NCBI RefSeq assembly: GCF_004119455.1
Contig: NZ_NRQT01000001.1
Coordinates: 1 to 64,000 of the forward strand
Reading direction: 5' to 3'
From: Chryseobacterium sp. CH25
GTDB lineage: Bacteria > Bacteroidota > Bacteroidia > Flavobacteriales > Weeksellaceae
Length of the DNA: 64,000 bases
In this document: in pieces, positions 4,264-30,306 of the stretch
Layout of the letters: every line of letters begins with the position of its first letter
Position numbering within the stretch: position 1 is the first letter of the stretch
Notes under the pieces: generated by a model
What the model saw: the letters and a program-made list of their open reading frames with translations, nothing else
Database searches by the model: none
What the model was told of the DNA's origin: nothing
Program-made: the position numbers and the translations under genes

Positions 4264-4851
4264 TTATTGATCTCTTGTCTTAAGAATTTCTTCAATCTCT
4301 TCTATTGAAAATCCTTTGGCTTTCAACAAAATCAGAAAGTGATACAGCAAATCTGCAGCTTCATTTTTAAAGAGCATTTCATTATTATCTTTGGCTTCAA
4401 TAACTAATTCTACAGCTTCCTCACCTACTTTTTGAGCTACTTTATTGATTCCTCTCTGATACAGTGAATACGTATAAGATCCTTCTGTCTTACTATCAAT
4501 CCTTTGCGCTATTTTTTCTTCCAGTTCATATAAAAACCCTTTGGCATCCTTTTCTCCAAAACAGCTGAAACTTCCGGTATGGCATACCACATTCGTAGGA
4601 ATAACTTTAATCAGTATGGTATCCTGATCACAATCAATATCAATACTTTTTACAGTTAAAAAGTTGCCTGATTCTTCTCCTTTTGTCCAGAGCCTGTTTT
4701 TGGAGCGACTGAAAAAGGTAACCACTTTTTCTTTTTCGGTTTTCTCAAATGCTTCCTGATTCATGTAGCCCAGCATCAGCACCTGCAATGTTCTGTAATC
4801 CTGAATCACTACCGGAACAAGCCCGTTATCTTTATTAAAATCAATATTCAT
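4264..4851 (-). CDS. hisIE: HisIE: phosphoribosyl-AMP cyclohydrolase / phosphoribosyl-ATP pyrophosphatase
   Basis: This 195-residue bifunctional enzyme catalyses steps 2 and 3 of histidine synthesis: PR-ATP to PR-AMP, then opening of the purine ring to ProFAR. The N-terminal HisI domain (about 1-105) carries DIDCDQDT and the Cys-rich [11 protein letters not shown] that bind Zn and Mg. The C-terminal HisE domain (about 110-195) has the helical [14 protein letters not shown] and NEAADLLYH motifs of the all-alpha pyrophosphatases. It overlaps hisF by 4 bases (ATGA-type junction) and is the last gene of the operon. Confidence 0.97.
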
Positions 4852-5600
4852 CGTACGTTTATTTGTTGAGTTTTTAATTGTTGTTTTAAATCCTGAATCC
4901 CTATTTCATTAAAATGGAATATACTGGCTGCCAAAGCTCCTGTAGCTTTTGTTTCATTGAATACTTTAACAAAATCATTTGCAGTTCCGGCACCACCGGA
5001 AGCTATCACAGGAATGGTTACGTGCTCTGAAACCAGCTTTGTAATGTTAAGGTCAAATCCATTTTTGGTTCCGTCCCCATCCATAGAGGTTAAAAGAATT
5101 TCACCAGCTCCTAAAGCTTCTGCTCTTTTTGCCCATTCTACCGTGTTCAGTTCTGTAGCTTCTCTTCCACCCTTAATGTGAACAAGGTCGGTTTCATTGA
5201 CTCTTTTAGTATCAATCGCCACTACGATGCACTGGCTCCCAAATTCATTAGCCAGCTCGGCAATCAGTTTCGGATCTTTTACTGCAGAAGAATTGATGCT
5301 GATCTTATCTGCTCCAGCCTCCAAAAGCTTTCTTACATCTTCTACAGAGGCAATTCCGCCACCAACCGTAAATGGAATACTCAATTCCTGAGCGATTTTG
5401 CGTACCAGTTCTACAAAGGTTTTTCTGTTTTCAATAGTGGCTGTAATATCAAGAAAAACTAGCTCATCAGCCCCTTCCTGTTCATATTTTTTGGCCAGTT
5501 CCACCGGATCACCGGCATTTTTAAGATCCTCAAAATTGATTCCTTTTACCGTACTTCCATCTTTAATATCAAGACATGGGATGATTCTTTTTTTAAGCAT
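4848..5600 (-). CDS. hisF: HisF: imidazole glycerol phosphate synthase, cyclase subunit
   Basis: HisF is the TIM barrel that combines ammonia from HisH with PRFAR to make imidazole glycerol phosphate and AICAR. I chose the start at 5600 ([15 protein letters not shown]) over the in-frame ATG two codons upstream (5606), because it places the catalytic Asp of PCLD at the canonical position 11. The second catalytic Asp is in VAIDTKR. The phosphate-binding VGGGIAS and ASGGAG loops are present. The length is 250 residues, normal for the family. It overlaps the hisA 3' end by 8 bases and hisIE by 4. Confidence 0.96.
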
Positions 5601-6318
5601 TTTCAATAAAATTTTGAAGTTGTTGAAGACTTATTTTCCCTTCGTAAATAGCCTTTCCAATAATGGTTCCTGTGCATCCGATATCTTTCATTTTATACAC
5701 ATCTTTAATTCCGGAAATACCACCACTGGCAATCAGCTGTAAGGAAGTTTTATATAAAATTTCAATGTAAAGACCTGTTGAAGGGCCTTCCAGCATTCCA
5801 TCCTTTGAAATATCCGTACATATAGTCGTTTGCATCCCTTTTTTCTGATATTCAAGAATAAAGTATATAATATCTTTATCACTTTCTTCCTGCCAGCCAG
5901 AGGTCTTTATCTTCCTGTTCTCACAGTCTGCCCCCAGAATAATTTTTTCTGGACCATATTTTTCAAGGGTACTGAGACAAAATTCCGGATTCTGAACGGC
6001 AATACTTCCTAATGTAATCTGTTTTGCCCCGGAATTAAAAGCTGTTTCAATATCCTGTGAAGATTTTAATCCACCCCCAAAATCAATATGCAGAGAAGTT
6101 GATTTTGCAATATTTTCAAGCACTTTCTGATTCACAATATGTTTAGATTTCGCCCCATCAAGATCCACCAGGTGAAGAAACTGAATACCAAAGTCTTCAA
6201 ATTCCCTGGCCACTTCTACAGGATCTTCATTGTATATTTTCTTGGTGCTGTAATCTCCTTTGGATAAACGCACACATTTTCCCTCAATAATATCAATAGC
6301 CGGAATAATCTTCATCAT
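5593..6318 (-). CDS. hisA: HisA: ProFAR isomerase
   Basis: HisA is the TIM barrel that converts ProFAR to PRFAR by an Amadori rearrangement. The 241-residue protein opens with [22 protein letters not shown], where the Asp of AIDI is the catalytic acid of the first half-barrel. The second is in CTDISKDGM, and the phosphate loops are FGGGLKS and ASGGISG. Two adjacent ATGs (6318 and 6315) are possible starts. The first overlaps the hisH stop as ATGA, consistent with translational coupling. Confidence 0.95.
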
Positions 6319-6896
6319 GATAAGTTTATAAAGTTGTTGAGAATCTTACTGCCTATACTGCCCGATTTTTCAGGGTGAAACTGAACCGCATAAAAGTTAT
6401 CTTTCTGCAGAGAGGCACTGAACGGCAGAATATAATCACAAACCGAAGTTGTATATTCTGACAATTCACAGTAATAGCTGTGAACGAAATACACACCATT
6501 TTCAGGTATAATTCCGGACAATAATGAAGATTTCTGTTCTGAAACCGTGTTCCATCCCATATGAGGAACCAGTTCCAATGGTGGGAATCTTTTTACTTTG
6601 ATATCGAAAATCCCCAGTCCTTCTGTATTGCCCTCTTCATTTCCCTTACACATCAGCTGCATTCCAAGGCATATTCCCAAAACTGGCTGTTTCAATGTAG
6701 GAATAATTTTGTCTAGCCCTTTTTCTTTTAGCAGCTTCATGGTAGAAGATGCCTCGCCTACACCGGGGAAAATCACCTTATCTGCATTTCGGATTACTTC
6801 CTGGTCATCTGTAATCACTGAGCTTATATTTAGCCTGTTTAAAGCATTCTGTACGGAGCTTACGTTCCCTCCATTATATTTTATTATTGCGATCAT
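6315..6896 (-). CDS. hisH: HisH: imidazole glycerol phosphate synthase, glutaminase subunit
   Basis: HisH is a class I glutamine amidotransferase that feeds ammonia to HisF. I set the start at 6896 ([14 protein letters not shown]), one base after the hisB stop. An upstream in-frame ATG at 6938 lies inside hisB and would add 14 unrelated residues. The 193-residue product carries the triad Cys76 (GICLGMQLM), His174 and Glu176 (QFHPEKSG), plus the oxyanion strand FPGVG. Its position between hisB and hisA is standard. Confidence 0.96.
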
Positions 6897-6897
6897 A

Positions 6898-7992
6898 TTA
6901 TAAACTTCCTTTGGTTGAAGGTAAATTATAGTTGTCATCGGATTGATTGACTGCCATTTTCACTGCTTTTGCAAACGCTTTGAAGATGGATTCTATCTTG
7001 TGGTGTTCGTTATCTCCTTCTGATTTGATATTTAAATTGGCTTTTGAAGAATCTGTAAACGATTTAAAAAAGTGGAAAAACATTTCTGTAGGTACATCTC
7101 CTATTTTCTCTCTTTTAAATTCTGCCTCCCAGACGAACCAAGGTCTGCCTCCGAAATCAATAGCAACCTGCGCAAGACAGTCATCCATTGGAAGCAGAAA
7201 GCCATATCTCTCAATTCCTTTTTTCTTCCCTAAGGCTTTTAAAATGGCCTCTCCCAGTACAATCCCTGTATCTTCAACCGTGTGGTGCTCATCTACCTGA
7301 AGATCTCCATTCACTTTGATCTTAAGATCCATATTTCCGTGTCTTGCGATCTGATCCAGCATGTGATCAAAGAAGTGAAGCCCTGTTGATATCTCAGACT
7401 GACCGTTTCCATCGAGATTAACTTCAATTTCTATTTCGGTTTCATTGGTCTTTCTATAGACTTTTGCCTTCCTCATTCCAGACTTTAAGAACTGGTAAAT
7501 CTCATTCCACTGTGTTGTTGTAAGATCTGCTTCTTTATTAAAGTTTTGGTTTAGAAAAATAGATTTAGACCCCAAATTTTTAGCAAGTTGAATATCTGTA
7601 ATTCGATCACCAATTACAAAGGAATTTTCCAGATCATAATCACCATAAATGTATTTCATTAACATTCCTGTGCCTGGTTTTCTGGTAGGCAAATTTTCAC
7701 TTTCAAAGCTTTTATCAATCAAGATATCACTAAAAATGATGCCTTCGTTTTCAAAAGCTCTGAGCATTTTTTCATGAGGTTTAATAAAATCCTCAAAAGG
7801 AAAACTTTCTGTTTCCAATCCATCCTGATTGGTTACCATCACCAATTCATAATCCAGTTCGTTTGCAATTTTTGAAAGATTTTGAAAGACACCAGGATAA
7901 AATTCCAGCTTTTCCAGTGAATCCACCTGAAAATCTGTAGGCGGCTCTATAATTAGGGTTCCATCCCGATCGATAAACAATATTTTTTTCAT
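6898..7992 (-). CDS. hisB: HisB: bifunctional histidinol-phosphatase / imidazoleglycerol-phosphate dehydratase
   Basis: This 364-residue fusion performs steps 6 and 8 of the pathway. The N-terminal HAD phosphatase has the DRDGT nucleophile motif at residues 8-12, TNQDG near 54 and GDRITD near 128. It lacks the Cys cluster that binds zinc in the Escherichia coli enzyme. The dehydratase domain (from about 173) has HFFDHM at 206-211 and DEHHTVED at 234-241, which bind the Mn ions. It starts 2 bases after the hisC stop and ends 1 base before hisH. Confidence 0.96.
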
Positions 7993-7994
7993 CT

Positions 7995-9019
7995 TTAATT
8001 ATTTTTTAAAAGAGTAATCAGCTTTTCATTCTCCTGGCGGGTTCCTACATTAATCCTGATGCATCCCGGAATCGCCGGATCTCTTCTGCTTGTTAAAATT
8101 TCCCGTTCCAACATCTTTTCATATACTCCATCAACATCATTAAGTTTGATTAAAAAGAAGTTAGCATCTGTTGGAAATACTTTGGATATGCATTCTATAT
8201 CCTTAAACTGATCCTGTAACCAAATACGTTCTTCAATAATATTACGTACATTATCTTTTAGTCTATTTTCATCTTCAAGGGCATTCAGAATCAATTCCTG
8301 GCTTAATGCATTTACATTGTAAGGAGCCTTCACTGTATTGATTAACTGAATAATCTCATCAGAAGCATAGGCAACACCTACTCTGGCTCCTGCAATTCCC
8401 CAAGCTTTTGAAAAGGTCTGAAGAACAATCAGATTAGGATACTCAACCAACAGTTCCAGACTTGATTTTTTCCGGAAAACTCAATATAAGCTTCATCTAC
8501 CACAACAATTCCGTTAAAATTCTGAAGATAGAATTCAATGTCTTCCGTGCTGTTTCCGGTTGGATTGTTTGGGGAACACAGGAAGAAAACCTTTATTGGC
8601 GTTTCATTAACCGTTTTTAAAAAATCTTCTTTTACGATCTCAAAGTTTTCATCCAGATCAAGCTGCAAAACCTTGTTTTCATTAATGGTTGCATAAAAAC
8701 CATACATGGCAAAAGAAGGATTCATCATCAGAATAGTATCTTTTTTAGGCTCACAGAAGATTTTAATGATTAAATCAATCAGTTCATCACTTCCGTTTCC
8801 TACAGCGATCTGTGCCGGAGACAGATTTCTAAGTTCTGCTAAACTGTTTTTAAGTTTTCGTTGGGTAGAATCCGGGTAACGGTTCCATTCTCCAAACGGG
8901 CTTTCATTAGCATCTAAATAAGTAGGCTCGTTAAATTCATTATGATCTCTAAAACTTATATAAGGCTTTAATTTTAAAATATTTTCTCTTACTAATGTAT
9001 TGATACTGATTGTATTCAT
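7995..9019 (-). pseudogene. hisC: hisC, histidinol-phosphate aminotransferase, broken by a one-base deletion
   Basis: HisC is the PLP enzyme that converts imidazole acetol phosphate to histidinol phosphate. Two abutting frames together cover a normal enzyme. Part one (9019 to 8429) runs from MNTISINTLVRENI through GNGSDELIDLI, CSPNNPTG and VVVDEAYIEFSGK, then changes to a nonsense tail. Part two (ending at 7995) continues with LVEYPNLIVLQTFSKAWG, which holds the PLP lysine. The break is at an A6 run (8466-8471). One extra A restores GKKSSLELLVEYPN and a 341-residue protein, the usual length. Possible causes are a real mutation, a homopolymer sequencing error, or slippage at the A run. The neighbouring genes are intact. 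Confidence 0.9.
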
Positions 9020-9020
9020 A

Positions 9021-10298
9021 TTATTTTTTTAATCTTATTGATACTGCATTTTTGTGAGCAAGAAGTCCTTCTGCTTCTGCCATTACTTTGATTGTTTTTC
9101 CTAAGTTCTGAAGTCCTTTCTTAGACAAATGCTGGAAGGTGATTTTCTTTACAAAACTGTCCAGAGACACTCCACTGTAATTCTTTGCATACGCATTAGT
9201 GGGAAGAGTGTGATTGGTTCCACTGGCATAATCTCCGGCACTTTCGCAGGAATAATTCCCAAGGAATACTGAACCTGCATTCTGAATCTGAGGGATATAT
9301 TTTTCAAATTCATCCATGGCCAGAATAAGGTGTTCAGGAGCATATAAATTACTGAACTCAACTGCTTCCTCAAGATTATTTAGCAAAATAAAACAACTAT
9401 TTTCAAGCGATTTTCCAGCCATTTCATTTCTTGGTAAGTCTTTGATCTGCTTCTCAACAGCACTGATTGTCTCATTAAACACTTTAAGATCTGTAGTTAA
9501 GAAAATTACCTGACTGTCGCTACCGTGTTCTGCCTGTGAAAGCAAGTCTGCAGCACAGAATTCCGGGACAGCCTGTTCATCAGCAATTACTAAAACTTCA
9601 CTTGGACCAGCCGGCATATCAATGGCTACTCCATACCGTTGGGCATATTCTTTGGCAGCTACCACAAACTGATTTCCAGGGCCAAAAATCTTATATACCT
9701 GTGGAATACTTTCCGTTCCTAAAGTCATTGCTGCGACCGCCTGAGCACCGCCTGTTTTGAAGATCTTTGAAACTCCACACAGTTTTGCCGTATATAAAAT
9801 CGCAGGATTTACTGCTCCGTTTTTGTCTGGTGGCGTGCAAAGAACAATCTCTTTACACCCAGCAATATTAGCAGGTACCGCAAGCATCAGCACGGTTGAA
9901 AATAAAGGCGCTGTTCCTCCCGGAATATAAATTCCTACCTTCTCTATGGCCCTGTTTTCTCTCCAGCAAACAACCCCTTTTGTGGTTTCTATTTTCTGAA
10001 TCTCCGGACTTTGAGAGTTGTGAAATTTAAAAATATTCTCTTTTGCCTGTTGGATAGCCTCTTTTAATTCGTTGCTAAGCTCGTTTTCTGCCTTAATAAT
10101 TTCTTCTTCGATAACAGCAATACTTTTAGTTTCTGCTTTATCAAATTTTTTATTGAATGCTATTAAAGCTTTATCTCCCTTGTTTTCAACTTCGGTAAAT
10201 ATTCCTTCTATCAATCCGGAAATTTCTTCCCGTTCAAAAACAGGACGCTTTACGAGGTCTTCCCATGTATCTTTTGTTGGATATCGATATATTTTCAT
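9021..10298 (-). CDS. hisD: HisD: histidinol dehydrogenase
   Basis: HisD is the zinc- and NAD-dependent enzyme for the last two oxidations, histidinol to histidine. The 425 residues are full length. Recognisable motifs are GIYIPGGTAPLFSTVLM, GGAQAVAAMTLGTESI with the adjacent KIFGPGN, MPAGPSEVLVIAD, and LLSQAEHGSDSQ (Gln and His zinc ligands). NAGSVFLGNYS and SAGDYASGTNHTLPT near the C-terminus complete the active site. It ends one base before the hisC start. A 252-base AT-rich gap separates it from hisG, unusually long within this tightly packed operon. Confidence 0.97.
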   Translation of the reverse strand: MKIYRYPTKDTWEDLVKRPVFEREEISGLIEGIFTEVENKGDKALIAFNKKFDKAETKSIAVIEEEIIKAENELSNELKEAIQQAKENIFKFHNSQSPEIQKIETTKGVVCWRENRAIEKVGIYIPGGTAPLFSTVLMLAVPANIAGCKEIVLCTPPDKNGAVNPAILYTAKLCGVSKIFKTGGAQAVAAMTLGTESIPQVYKIFGPGNQFVVAAKEYAQRYGVAIDMPAGPSEVLVIADEQAVPEFCAADLLSQAEHGSDSQVIFLTTDLKVFNETISAVEKQIKDLPRNEMAGKSLENSCFILLNNLEEAVEFSNLYAPEHLILAMDEFEKYIPQIQNAGSVFLGNYSCESAGDYASGTNHTLPTNAYAKNYSGVSLDSFVKKITFQHLSKKGLQNLGKTIKVMAEAEGLLAHKNAVSIRLKK

Positions 10299-10550: not shown

Positions 10551-11402
10551 TCACCATTTATCAATAGGAATAATAAGTATATCCTGCGCTCCGTTTTCCT
10601 TCAGCTCATCAATCACTTCCCAGAATCTTTCTTCATCAATTACAGAATGAATACTGCTCCAGCCCTCTTCTGCCAATGGAATAACAGTCGGGCTTTTCAG
10701 TACGGGAAGTACATCCGCCACTTTCTGAATCATATCATTGGGAACATTCATCAGGATATATTTTGAATTTTTAGCTTTTAAAACAGCCTTAATTCTGAAA
10801 AGGAATTTATCAAGAATAGCTGTTTTTTCGGATGATAATTGTGGGGTTTGTGCCAAAACGGCCTCTGATTTCAATAGCGTTACCGTTTCTCTCAACCCGT
10901 TTTTGAATAAGGTGCTTCCGGAGCTAACAATATCACAGATTCCTTCTGCCAGGCCAATATTAGGGGCAATTTCAACGGAACCGGAGATCACGTGGATATC
11001 TGAAGTGATTCCTTTTTGTTCTAAAAATTTTTTAAGGGTATTAGGATAAGAAGTGGCTATTTTTCGGCCTTGAAAGTAAGCCAGATCATCGGTTTCGATT
11101 TCTTTCGGAACAGCGATGGATACACGGCATTTTGAAAAACCAAGTTTCTCAACAATCTGGATCTTTTTTTGTTTTTCAACTAAAAGATTTTCGCCTACAA
11201 TGGCTACATCTACCACTCCATCTTCCAGGTATTGAGGAATGTCTGAATTTCGCAGATACATGATTTCCATCGGGAAGTTATCTACGGAAACTTTTAGTTG
11301 GTCTTTACCGTTGTTGACAAAGATTCCACAGTCTTTGAGAAGCTGCAGGGATTCTTCGTATAAACGGCCACTTTTCTGAATCGCAATTTTTAATTTACTC
11401 AT
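10551..11402 (-). CDS. hisG: HisG: ATP phosphoribosyltransferase, long form
   Basis: HisG catalyses the first committed step, joining ATP and PRPP to give PR-ATP. The 283 residues start with MSKLKIAIQKSGRL. They include the periplasmic-binding-like catalytic core (VDVAIVGENLLVE, ATSYPNTLKKFL, EIAPNIGLAEGICDIVSSGSTL with the PRPP loop) and a C-terminal region of about 75 residues (KYILMNVPNDMIQKVADVLPVLKSPTVIPL). That region marks the long HisG(L) class, which binds histidine by itself and needs no HisZ. The operon can thus be controlled by feedback on this enzyme and by the upstream attenuator. Confidence 0.96.
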   Translation of the reverse strand: MSKLKIAIQKSGRLYEESLQLLKDCGIFVNNGKDQLKVSVDNFPMEIMYLRNSDIPQYLEDGVVDVAIVGENLLVEKQKKIQIVEKLGFSKCRVSIAVPKEIETDDLAYFQGRKIATSYPNTLKKFLEQKGITSDIHVISGSVEIAPNIGLAEGICDIVSSGSTLFKNGLRETVTLLKSEAVLAQTPQLSSEKTAILDKFLFRIKAVLKAKNSKYILMNVPNDMIQKVADVLPVLKSPTVIPLAEEGWSSIHSVIDEERFWEVIDELKENGAQDILIIPIDKW

Positions 11403-11470
11403 TTCGTCTTTTTTGAGTCCGAGTAAATAAAAACTGATCTGTTGAAATTTCTGAGGAGAATTCAGGAAAC

Positions 11471-11503
11471 AAAAAAACCGTCTATTTACTCAGACGGTTT
11501 TTA
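11471..11503 (-). terminator. his operon attenuator: terminator with competing antiterminator
   Basis: On the minus strand CCGTCT (11497-11492) and AGACGG (11483-11478) form a terminator stem followed by seven T, about 70 bases before hisG. A second AGACGG copy (11548-11543, extendable to TTAGACGG at 11550-11543) overlaps the stop codon of the leader peptide and can pair with CCGTCTGA of the first arm for 8 base pairs, excluding the terminator. A ribosome reaching the stop would cover that copy, allowing termination. A ribosome stalled at the His codons would leave it free. This is the geometry of classical attenuation. Confidence 0.85.
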
Positions 11504-11546
11504 AATATTTTTGATTTTAGCACAAACAAATATCAATCAATTCCGT

Positions 11547-11597
11547 CTAACAGAGATGATGATAGTAATGATGTAATGCTAAAATTATTGGCTTCAT
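11547..11597 (-). CDS. histidine operon leader peptide
   Basis: ATG at 11597 opens a 16-codon frame, MKPIILALHHYYHHLC, ending in TAG at 11549-11547. Four of the 16 residues are His, all CAT, in two pairs flanking two Tyr. It lies between a consensus promoter and an intrinsic terminator upstream of hisG. I infer a HisL-type attenuation peptide whose translation senses charged tRNA-His. The two Tyr codons might add a second input, but that is speculation. The peptide itself probably has no other function. Confidence 0.88.
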   Translation of the reverse strand: MKPIILALHHYYHHLC

Positions 11598-11614
11598 TGT
11601 ATTGAATTATGATG

Positions 11615-11644
11615 CAAATGTAGGGTTTATTTTTAAAATGCAAA
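11615..11644 (-). promoter_or_regulatory. his operon promoter
   Basis: On the minus strand TTTG (11644-11641), 18 bases, then TACATTTG (11622-11615) match the Bacteroidota consensus. The expected start of transcription, around 11608, is roughly 10 bases before the leader peptide ATG. Confidence 0.75.
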
Positions 11645-30232: not shown

Positions 30233-30306
30233 GGGGGATTGGCGCAGTTGGCTAGCGCGTTTGACTGGCAGTCAAAAGGCCACGGGTTCGAATCCCGTAT
30301 TCTCCA
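30233..30306 (+). tRNA. tRNA-Ala (anticodon GGC)
   Basis: The 74 bases fold into a full cloverleaf. The acceptor stem GGGGGAT/ATTCTCC includes the G3:U70 pair that is the alanine identity element. The D stem is GCGC/GCGC and the anticodon stem TTTGA/TCAAA has loop CTGGCAG (anticodon 30267-30269). The T stem ACGGG/CCCGT carries TTCGAAT. The discriminator is A. CCA is not encoded. Confidence 0.96.

Follow-up and report, generated by a model that had tools for sequence, protein, structure and literature searches.

We consider it very likely that the his operon leader of Chryseobacterium sp. CH25 is a ribosome-mediated, histidine-sensing transcription attenuator and that the 5' arm of its terminator also takes part in a real RNA pairing with a segment located just upstream of the hisG start codon. 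In the 64,000-nucleotide stretch of DNA analyzed here (the window), segment 2 of the leader is complementary to three others and could thus form an antiterminator with segment 1, a terminator with segment 3, or, with segment 4, a structure that occludes the start of hisG. Because its terminator arm is complementary to a downstream segment close to the start codon, the arrangement has the form of a dual transcription-translation attenuator, so that transcripts escaping termination would be checked again at translation. We propose tentatively, at somewhat less than even odds, that such a two-tier device arose in the window's order by addition to a His attenuator that is widespread in the phylum.

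The his operon and its leader

All elements of the attenuator and the his operon lie on the minus strand of the window, with the genes downstream of the leader in the order hisG-D-C-NB-H-A-F-IE. The first gene, hisG (10551 to 11402, start at 11402), matches TIGR00070 (180 bits) and TIGR03455 (99.6 bits), both above cut-off; among the 80 loci kept, C. contaminans (98% identity) and C. jejuense (97%) have the most similar named HisG proteins. The remaining genes (hisD, hisC, bifunctional hisB, hisH, hisA, hisF, and hisIE) occupy positions 4264 to 10298, and all his genes except hisC exceed the cut-off of their own NCBIfam model. The hisC frame is broken: a frameshift within 7995 to 9019 (minus strand) yields two overlapping ORFs, each matching one half of TIGR01141 below cut-off, and the relatives L248 and L249 have a single open frame of 344 residues. 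The frameshift is either a sequencing error or a real loss. Elsewhere in the window, a tRNA gene on the plus strand (30233 to 30306) is the sole Rfam match above cut-off.

A putative promoter (11615 to 11644) consists of TTTG at 11644 to 11641 and TACATTTG at 11622 to 11615, boxes that we take to be the flavobacterial promoter consensus; the TACATTTG block is almost unchanged across 71 loci in the genus alignment. Downstream lies a 16-codon leader peptide ORF, MKPIILALHHYYHHLC (11547 to 11597), with four His codons and a TAG stop at 11549 to 11547. Segment 1, the antiterminator 5' arm TTAGACGG (11543 to 11550), overlaps this stop and forms a duplex of -12.0 kcal/mol with segment 2, CCGTCTGAGTAAAT (11484 to 11497), which comprises the terminator 5' arm and loop and is the common partner of segments 1, 3, and 4. 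Segments 2 and 3 (AGACGG, 11483 to 11478) make up the intrinsic terminator hairpin (11473 to 11502), a CCGTCT...AGACGG stem followed by seven T residues at 11477 to 11471. The original prediction listed the promoter-like boxes, the 16-codon ORF with its HHYYHH run, the AGACGG copy at the leader stop, and the terminator, and each of these is present in the sequence. The leader RNA folds better than chance (z = -5.1, with none of 200 shuffles as good). The terminator ranks first of 10 terminator-like sites in 12 kb, where 7.9 would be expected by chance in such a scan, and support for it therefore comes from its conservation.

Conservation in the genus, family, and phylum

A search of 173 genomes of the genus recovered hisG in 167. 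The covariance model R1, which spans the leader and the terminator and was derived from 15 loci of the genus and 29 from elsewhere in the family, matched 166 of the 173; the six genomes without hisG also lacked an R1 match, and in the sole other miss (G137) hisG starts at base 100 of its contig, 99 bases from the end. We note that R1 is close to a sequence profile, since RNAalifold finds only 6 terminator pairs. All ten R1 matches that were compared with hisG positions sit immediately upstream of the gene, and a second match occurs in seven genomes.

Whereas R1 covered all 173 genomes, individual genus loci were first taken from 70 of the 167 (the top 30 matches together with 40 distributed over the rest of the list), and G019 was added from the phylum search, giving 72 loci in 71 genomes (L069 and L072 come from one genome). 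At 72/72 of these loci, hisG is preceded by a leader ORF in which 8 codons include four or more His, versus 6/1,440 dinucleotide shuffles. The genus peptide is MKPxFL[A/T][L/V]HHY[Y/H]HHLC with minor deviations, and its His run is HHY[Y/H]HH, or HHYHH in three loci.

Beyond the genus, hisG was found in 97 of 148 genomes sampled from the family and 128 of 148 sampled from the phylum. Loci were taken from 34 of the 78 other-genus family genomes with hisG and from 53 of the 125 further phylum genomes with hisG. We refer to the other genera of the window's family as f1, to a group given as within the window's order as f2, and to two further families as f3 and f21. Where HisG was at least 41% identical, 69 of 83 further loci had at least 4 His in 8 codons (shuffles, 4/1,660), and 76 had at least 3 (shuffles, 64/1,660). 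None of the four loci with a distant HisG type had a His leader, and L117, which has HisG and no His leader, is outside the structure counts. The non-His parts of the peptides vary widely across the phylum, as in MFNQLHHHHFHTCTHAS and MKNIPATYHLHHHHFNSKRAG.

The terminator is conserved as well. The script placed one between the leader and hisG in 71 of the 72 genus loci, and in the remaining locus (L012) a terminator is visible in the sequence though the script missed it, the stem extending past the T run. When 40 loci sampled from all groups were shuffled five times each, the native terminator score was reached in 0/200 cases, loci without a terminator being counted as unreachable. The original prediction had called for a comparison of hisG upstream regions in relatives, and the genus retains the His run, the terminator, and the antiterminator arm that overlaps the stop codon of the leader. 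Among the 76 non-genus loci with at least 3 His in the ORF, the script found a terminator in 64 and none in 12 (L091, L095, L096, four f3 loci, and five f21 loci); leaders of the latter kind may use another read-out. The four f3 loci (L139, L143, L146, and L148) combine a His-run leader with a strong hairpin at or beside the leader stop. The five f21 loci (L149, L150, L151, L154, and L155) encode leader peptides with many spaced His pairs, some from a GTG start.

A probable ribosome-gated antiterminator

In the proposed mechanism, transcription would begin near 11610 and a ribosome would enter the 16-codon leader. With ample His-tRNA, the ribosome would reach the UAG stop and cover segment 1, or would leave and allow segment 1 to fold into a leader hairpin; segment 2 would then be free, the 2:3 terminator would form, and RNA polymerase would stop before hisG. 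When His-tRNA is scarce, the ribosome would stall at codons 9 to 14 and leave segment 1 exposed, the 1:2 antiterminator would pair, and the operon would be transcribed.

To model this switch, we folded transcripts that end with the terminator loop, a stage at which segment 3 has yet to be made, and kept the 27 nt covered by a ribosome single-stranded. For the window, the probability of the 1:2 pairing was 1.00 with the ribosome stalled at the first His codon, 0.00 with the ribosome at the stop, and 0.00 with no ribosome, when the leader folds on itself. With a stall at the second His codon, the probability exceeded 0.5 in 67/71 genus, 33/33 f1, 14/14 f2, and 16/17 other loci. A switch, defined as a probability above 0.5 in this stalled state and below 0.5 at the stop, was seen in 66/71 genus, 20/33 f1, 9/14 f2, and 10/17 of the rest, compared to 24/80, 34/165, 9/70, and 16/85, respectively, when the spacer was shuffled. 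The genus values agree with the earlier proposal that stalling frees the antiterminator and that reaching the stop covers it. In 13 of the 33 f1 loci, the 1:2 probability stayed above 0.5 with the ribosome at the stop. Without a ribosome, it exceeded 0.5 in 11/71 genus, 10/33 f1, 7/14 f2, and 10/17 of the remaining loci; a closed state in the absence of translation is therefore not general.

The native 1:2 partner was better than the mean of swapped partners in 26/33 f1, 7/14 f2, and 40/71 genus loci. The paired fraction was marginally above the maximum of the partner swaps in f1 (0.717 versus 0.714) and equal to it in f2 (0.829), and genus rows fell off the f1/f2 register, with 36 of 104 cells paired. 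The antiterminator pairing is kept, not broken, but the compensatory change that the original prediction suggested looking for is weak; since the pairing is conserved with little covariation, it is supported by conservation and position rather than by compensatory change. Taken with the anatomy of the leader, the folding models support the classical ribosome-mediated attenuation that had been predicted, most clearly in the genus.

The minimum free energy fold contains a further element, not part of the original prediction, that joins the leader ORF to the spacer. In this possible protecting helix (11515 to 11584), TTTTAGCA (11584 to 11577) pairs with TGCTAAAA (11522 to 11515) and would enclose segment 1 when the ribosome is absent. 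A paired change in relatives, from TTAGCA/TGCTAA to TTAACA/TGTTAA, is apparent by eye. The helix is modestly favored over shuffles: the genus mean is 21.0 expected pairs versus 16.7, with 1/71 loci above the 90th percentile, and this percentile is exceeded in 20/33 f1, 7/14 f2, 4/4 f3, 2/5 f21, and 7/17 of the rest. It is missing from the RNAalifold consensus of the 44-locus leader alignment, which contains 6 pairs, all in the terminator. In many f1 and f2 loci (L073 to L133), a stretch like GAGCTGATNATGATATG is visible by eye just 3' of segment 1; it is able to pair with the His codons, and a protecting hairpin may have it as the 3' arm.

A fourth segment complementary to the terminator arm

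Segment 4, ATTTACTCGGAC (11417 to 11428), is located downstream of the terminator, 14 nt before the hisG start codon, and was absent from the original prediction. It can form 12 bp with GTCTGAGTAAAT of segment 2, which takes in the terminator 5' arm from the third base onward together with the loop; the duplex energy is -17.3 kcal/mol. Native 2:4 partners were better than the mean of swapped partners in 32/33 f1 loci (mean, -15.9 versus -9.7 kcal/mol) and in 10/14 f2 loci (-10.7 versus -8.1 kcal/mol). In the genus, they were hardly better (48/71 loci; -16.7 versus -16.3 kcal/mol) because the sequences scarcely differ. When the downstream sequence was shuffled 100 times, no shuffle reached the duplex in 67/71 genus, 27/33 f1, and 7/14 f2 loci, and one or two did so in a further 4, 5, and 2 loci, respectively.

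The pairing covaries. In the 44-locus alignment, which omitted L126, an f1 locus without segment 4 whose inclusion would lower the score, 93.3% of 2:4 cells were paired, 10 of the 12 pairs had two-sided change, and 46 cells were two-sided. Shuffles gave 84.1%, 5.9 pairs, and 12.9 cells, with 0/500 reaching each native value, and sliding the partner paired at most 40.3% of cells. Alignments A1 and A2 also omitted the near copies L104, L105, and L106, and a 59-locus set kept all four loci. In this larger set, with L126 included, 345 of 382 f1 cells were paired (0.903, compared to a maximum of 0.794 in 500 whole-row swaps), as were 107 of 121 f2 cells (0.884; swap maximum, 0.883) and 129 of 144 cells in genus rows (0.896, equal to the swap maximum). 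Two-sided change affects the loop as well as the portion that also belongs to the terminator stem, and we therefore conclude that 2:4 competes with 2:3. Chance complementarity was considered and rejected on the basis of the partner swaps, shuffles, and covariation. A role of segment 4 as an antiterminator was likewise rejected, because it is transcribed after the terminator.

What segment 4 does is a separate matter. It is made after the terminator and ends near the hisG start by an adjoining A-rich stretch, and we therefore propose that it most likely provides a second, translational check on hisG: in read-through RNA, the 2:4 pairing would hinder hisG translation unless segment 1 holds segment 2. 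A-rich stretches are of the kind used by flavobacterial ribosomes. There is a real possibility, nonetheless, that the leader is a classical attenuator alone and that segment 4 persists because it serves the RNA in some other way: it might reset the leader following read-through, melt the terminator hairpin so that ribosomes are not disturbed, or protect the mRNA from RNases. Equilibrium folding, which gives no clear support to the translational check, leaves room for this alternative. When eight loci were folded as read-through RNA without pseudoknots or a ribosome, the 2:4 probability was 0.88 in the window locus (L001) only, 0.09 to 0.26 in three others, and 0.00 in the remaining four. Its dependence on ribosome position was small and inconsistent, changing in the expected direction in L129 (0.00 stalled, 0.23 at the stop) and in the opposite direction in L083 (0.27 stalled, 0.16 at the stop). 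The distribution of segment 4 also speaks for this alternative: it is found in the window's order only, is missing from L126 and from 5 of the 14 f2 loci, and is absent from all 16 testable loci outside the genus, f1, and f2 (a 17th was too short), though leader and terminator are present. On the other hand, segment 4 stays close to the start codon, which hints at a link to initiation without proving it. The distance to the hisG start is 13 to 18 nt in the genus (standard deviation, 1.1), 15 to 30 nt in f1, and 14 to 31 nt in f2; the distance to the terminator is somewhat more variable (46 to 55 nt in the genus, with a standard deviation of 2.1, 13 to 35 nt in f1, and 19 to 34 nt in f2).

Because segments 2 and 4 form an inverted repeat in DNA, they might also be viewed as half-sites of an operator for a his repressor. 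We regard this as very unlikely. The non-Watson-Crick cells of 2:4 in the 59 loci include 52 G-U and 8 A-C, a pattern expected of RNA, along with a further 58 mismatches (17 at the outermost pair); furthermore, the spacing of the arms varies between groups, and the pairing includes the terminator stem and loop. Least probable of all is that another sensor, a T-box or metabolite riboswitch, drives the terminator and that the His ORF is incidental: such systems also look like a structured leader followed by a terminator, but no cis-regulatory Rfam family exceeds its cut-off in the window, and the His runs are kept while the rest of the peptide changes. The T-box model had no match over cut-off in the window or at E values up to 1 in the leaders searched. 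The Rfam His leader likewise gave no match at the gathering cut-off in the window and none at E values up to 1 in L001, L100, L080, and L129. At this permissive threshold, sub-threshold matches were to Phe_leader in L001 (30.6 bits) and to Thr_leader in L100 (24.6 bits) and L129 (26.2 bits), against a cut-off of 55, and L100 also had a weak match to PyrG_leader.

Relation to known systems

We favor a histidine attenuator to which the 2:4 pairing may add a translational check, an arrangement with partial counterparts elsewhere. In the E. coli K-12 hisL attenuator, as judged from its annotation and from folding of the terminator, hisG is likewise preceded by a strong terminator and by a leader peptide with a run of His; this attenuator differs from the window leader in both peptide and RNA sequence. 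It also lacks an equivalent of segment 4: its best duplex between the terminator arm and downstream sequence was matched by 153 of 200 shuffles. The B. subtilis trp leader, controlled by TRAP, combines a terminator with a translation-blocking hairpin in the read-through RNA, and there a protein rather than a ribosome serves as the sensor. A comparative study published by Lopatovskaya and others in 2010, cited in PMC4833913, may include cases from Bacteroidetes. In the Salmonella speF leader, according to the available parts of the report, progress of the ribosome through orf34 affects both transcription termination and access to the ribosome-binding site; orf34 differs in using arginine codons, Rho-dependent termination, and RNase G (PMC6386406).

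Whether a flavobacterial version had already been described was left open by the original prediction. In part, it had: the available sections of a 2021 study of Flavobacterium psychrophilum report clues to leader-peptide attenuation before amino acid operons and a conserved, structured 5' element of hisG that has no Rfam hits and is present in other genera of the family (PMC9723704). Those sections present neither a leader sequence nor an antiterminator or fourth segment, and the distribution that they give does not go beyond the family. For B. thetaiotaomicron, the accessible part of PMC7366714 mentions short ORFs within long 5' untranslated regions that are reminiscent of leader peptides. 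The portion of PMC2965389 at hand treats Proteobacteria and Actinobacteria as the only groups with known leader-peptide systems, ermC excepted, and extends the list to Firmicutes, and that of PMC6429828 contained nothing on this element. In the literature searched, partly available as it was, we came across no account of how widely His leaders occur in the phylum or of a fourth segment near the hisG start, the latter sought only under dual control.

Segment 4 was also considered as a general scheme, a reading set aside after inspection of other amino acid operons. The genome that contains the window has a locus (L160; contig C111, about 866 kb) upstream of a trpE-like gene where a leader, MFTMSNNIWWWLSNSSSGLEVLSCC, with three Trp codons and a terminator-like hairpin with a T run can be discerned by eye; no match to segment 4 was seen there by eye, and its leader had no Rfam match at E values up to 1. 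This includes the Bacteroid-trp motif (RF01692), listed in the available part of PMC2864571 as a putative cis-regulatory RNA of Bacteroidetes, with a name that points to trp genes, which had no match in the window either. The 330 to 350 nt before other PF00425, PF00800, PF00742, and PF00920 genes contained no obvious attenuator, a weak negative given that starts were chosen by a script and only ATG-started ORFs of 8 to 40 codons were considered.

Implications

Textbook leader-peptide attenuation comes from Proteobacteria. Here, His leaders precede hisG at most of the Bacteroidota-phylum loci that we read, with differing leader sequences, in a phylum that starts translation largely without Shine-Dalgarno pairing. 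Lineages with such a leader in which no terminator was seen raise the question of an alternative read-out. In the window's order, the covarying segment 4 is a precise element whose mutation could reveal whether a single RNA arm governs transcription as well as translation.
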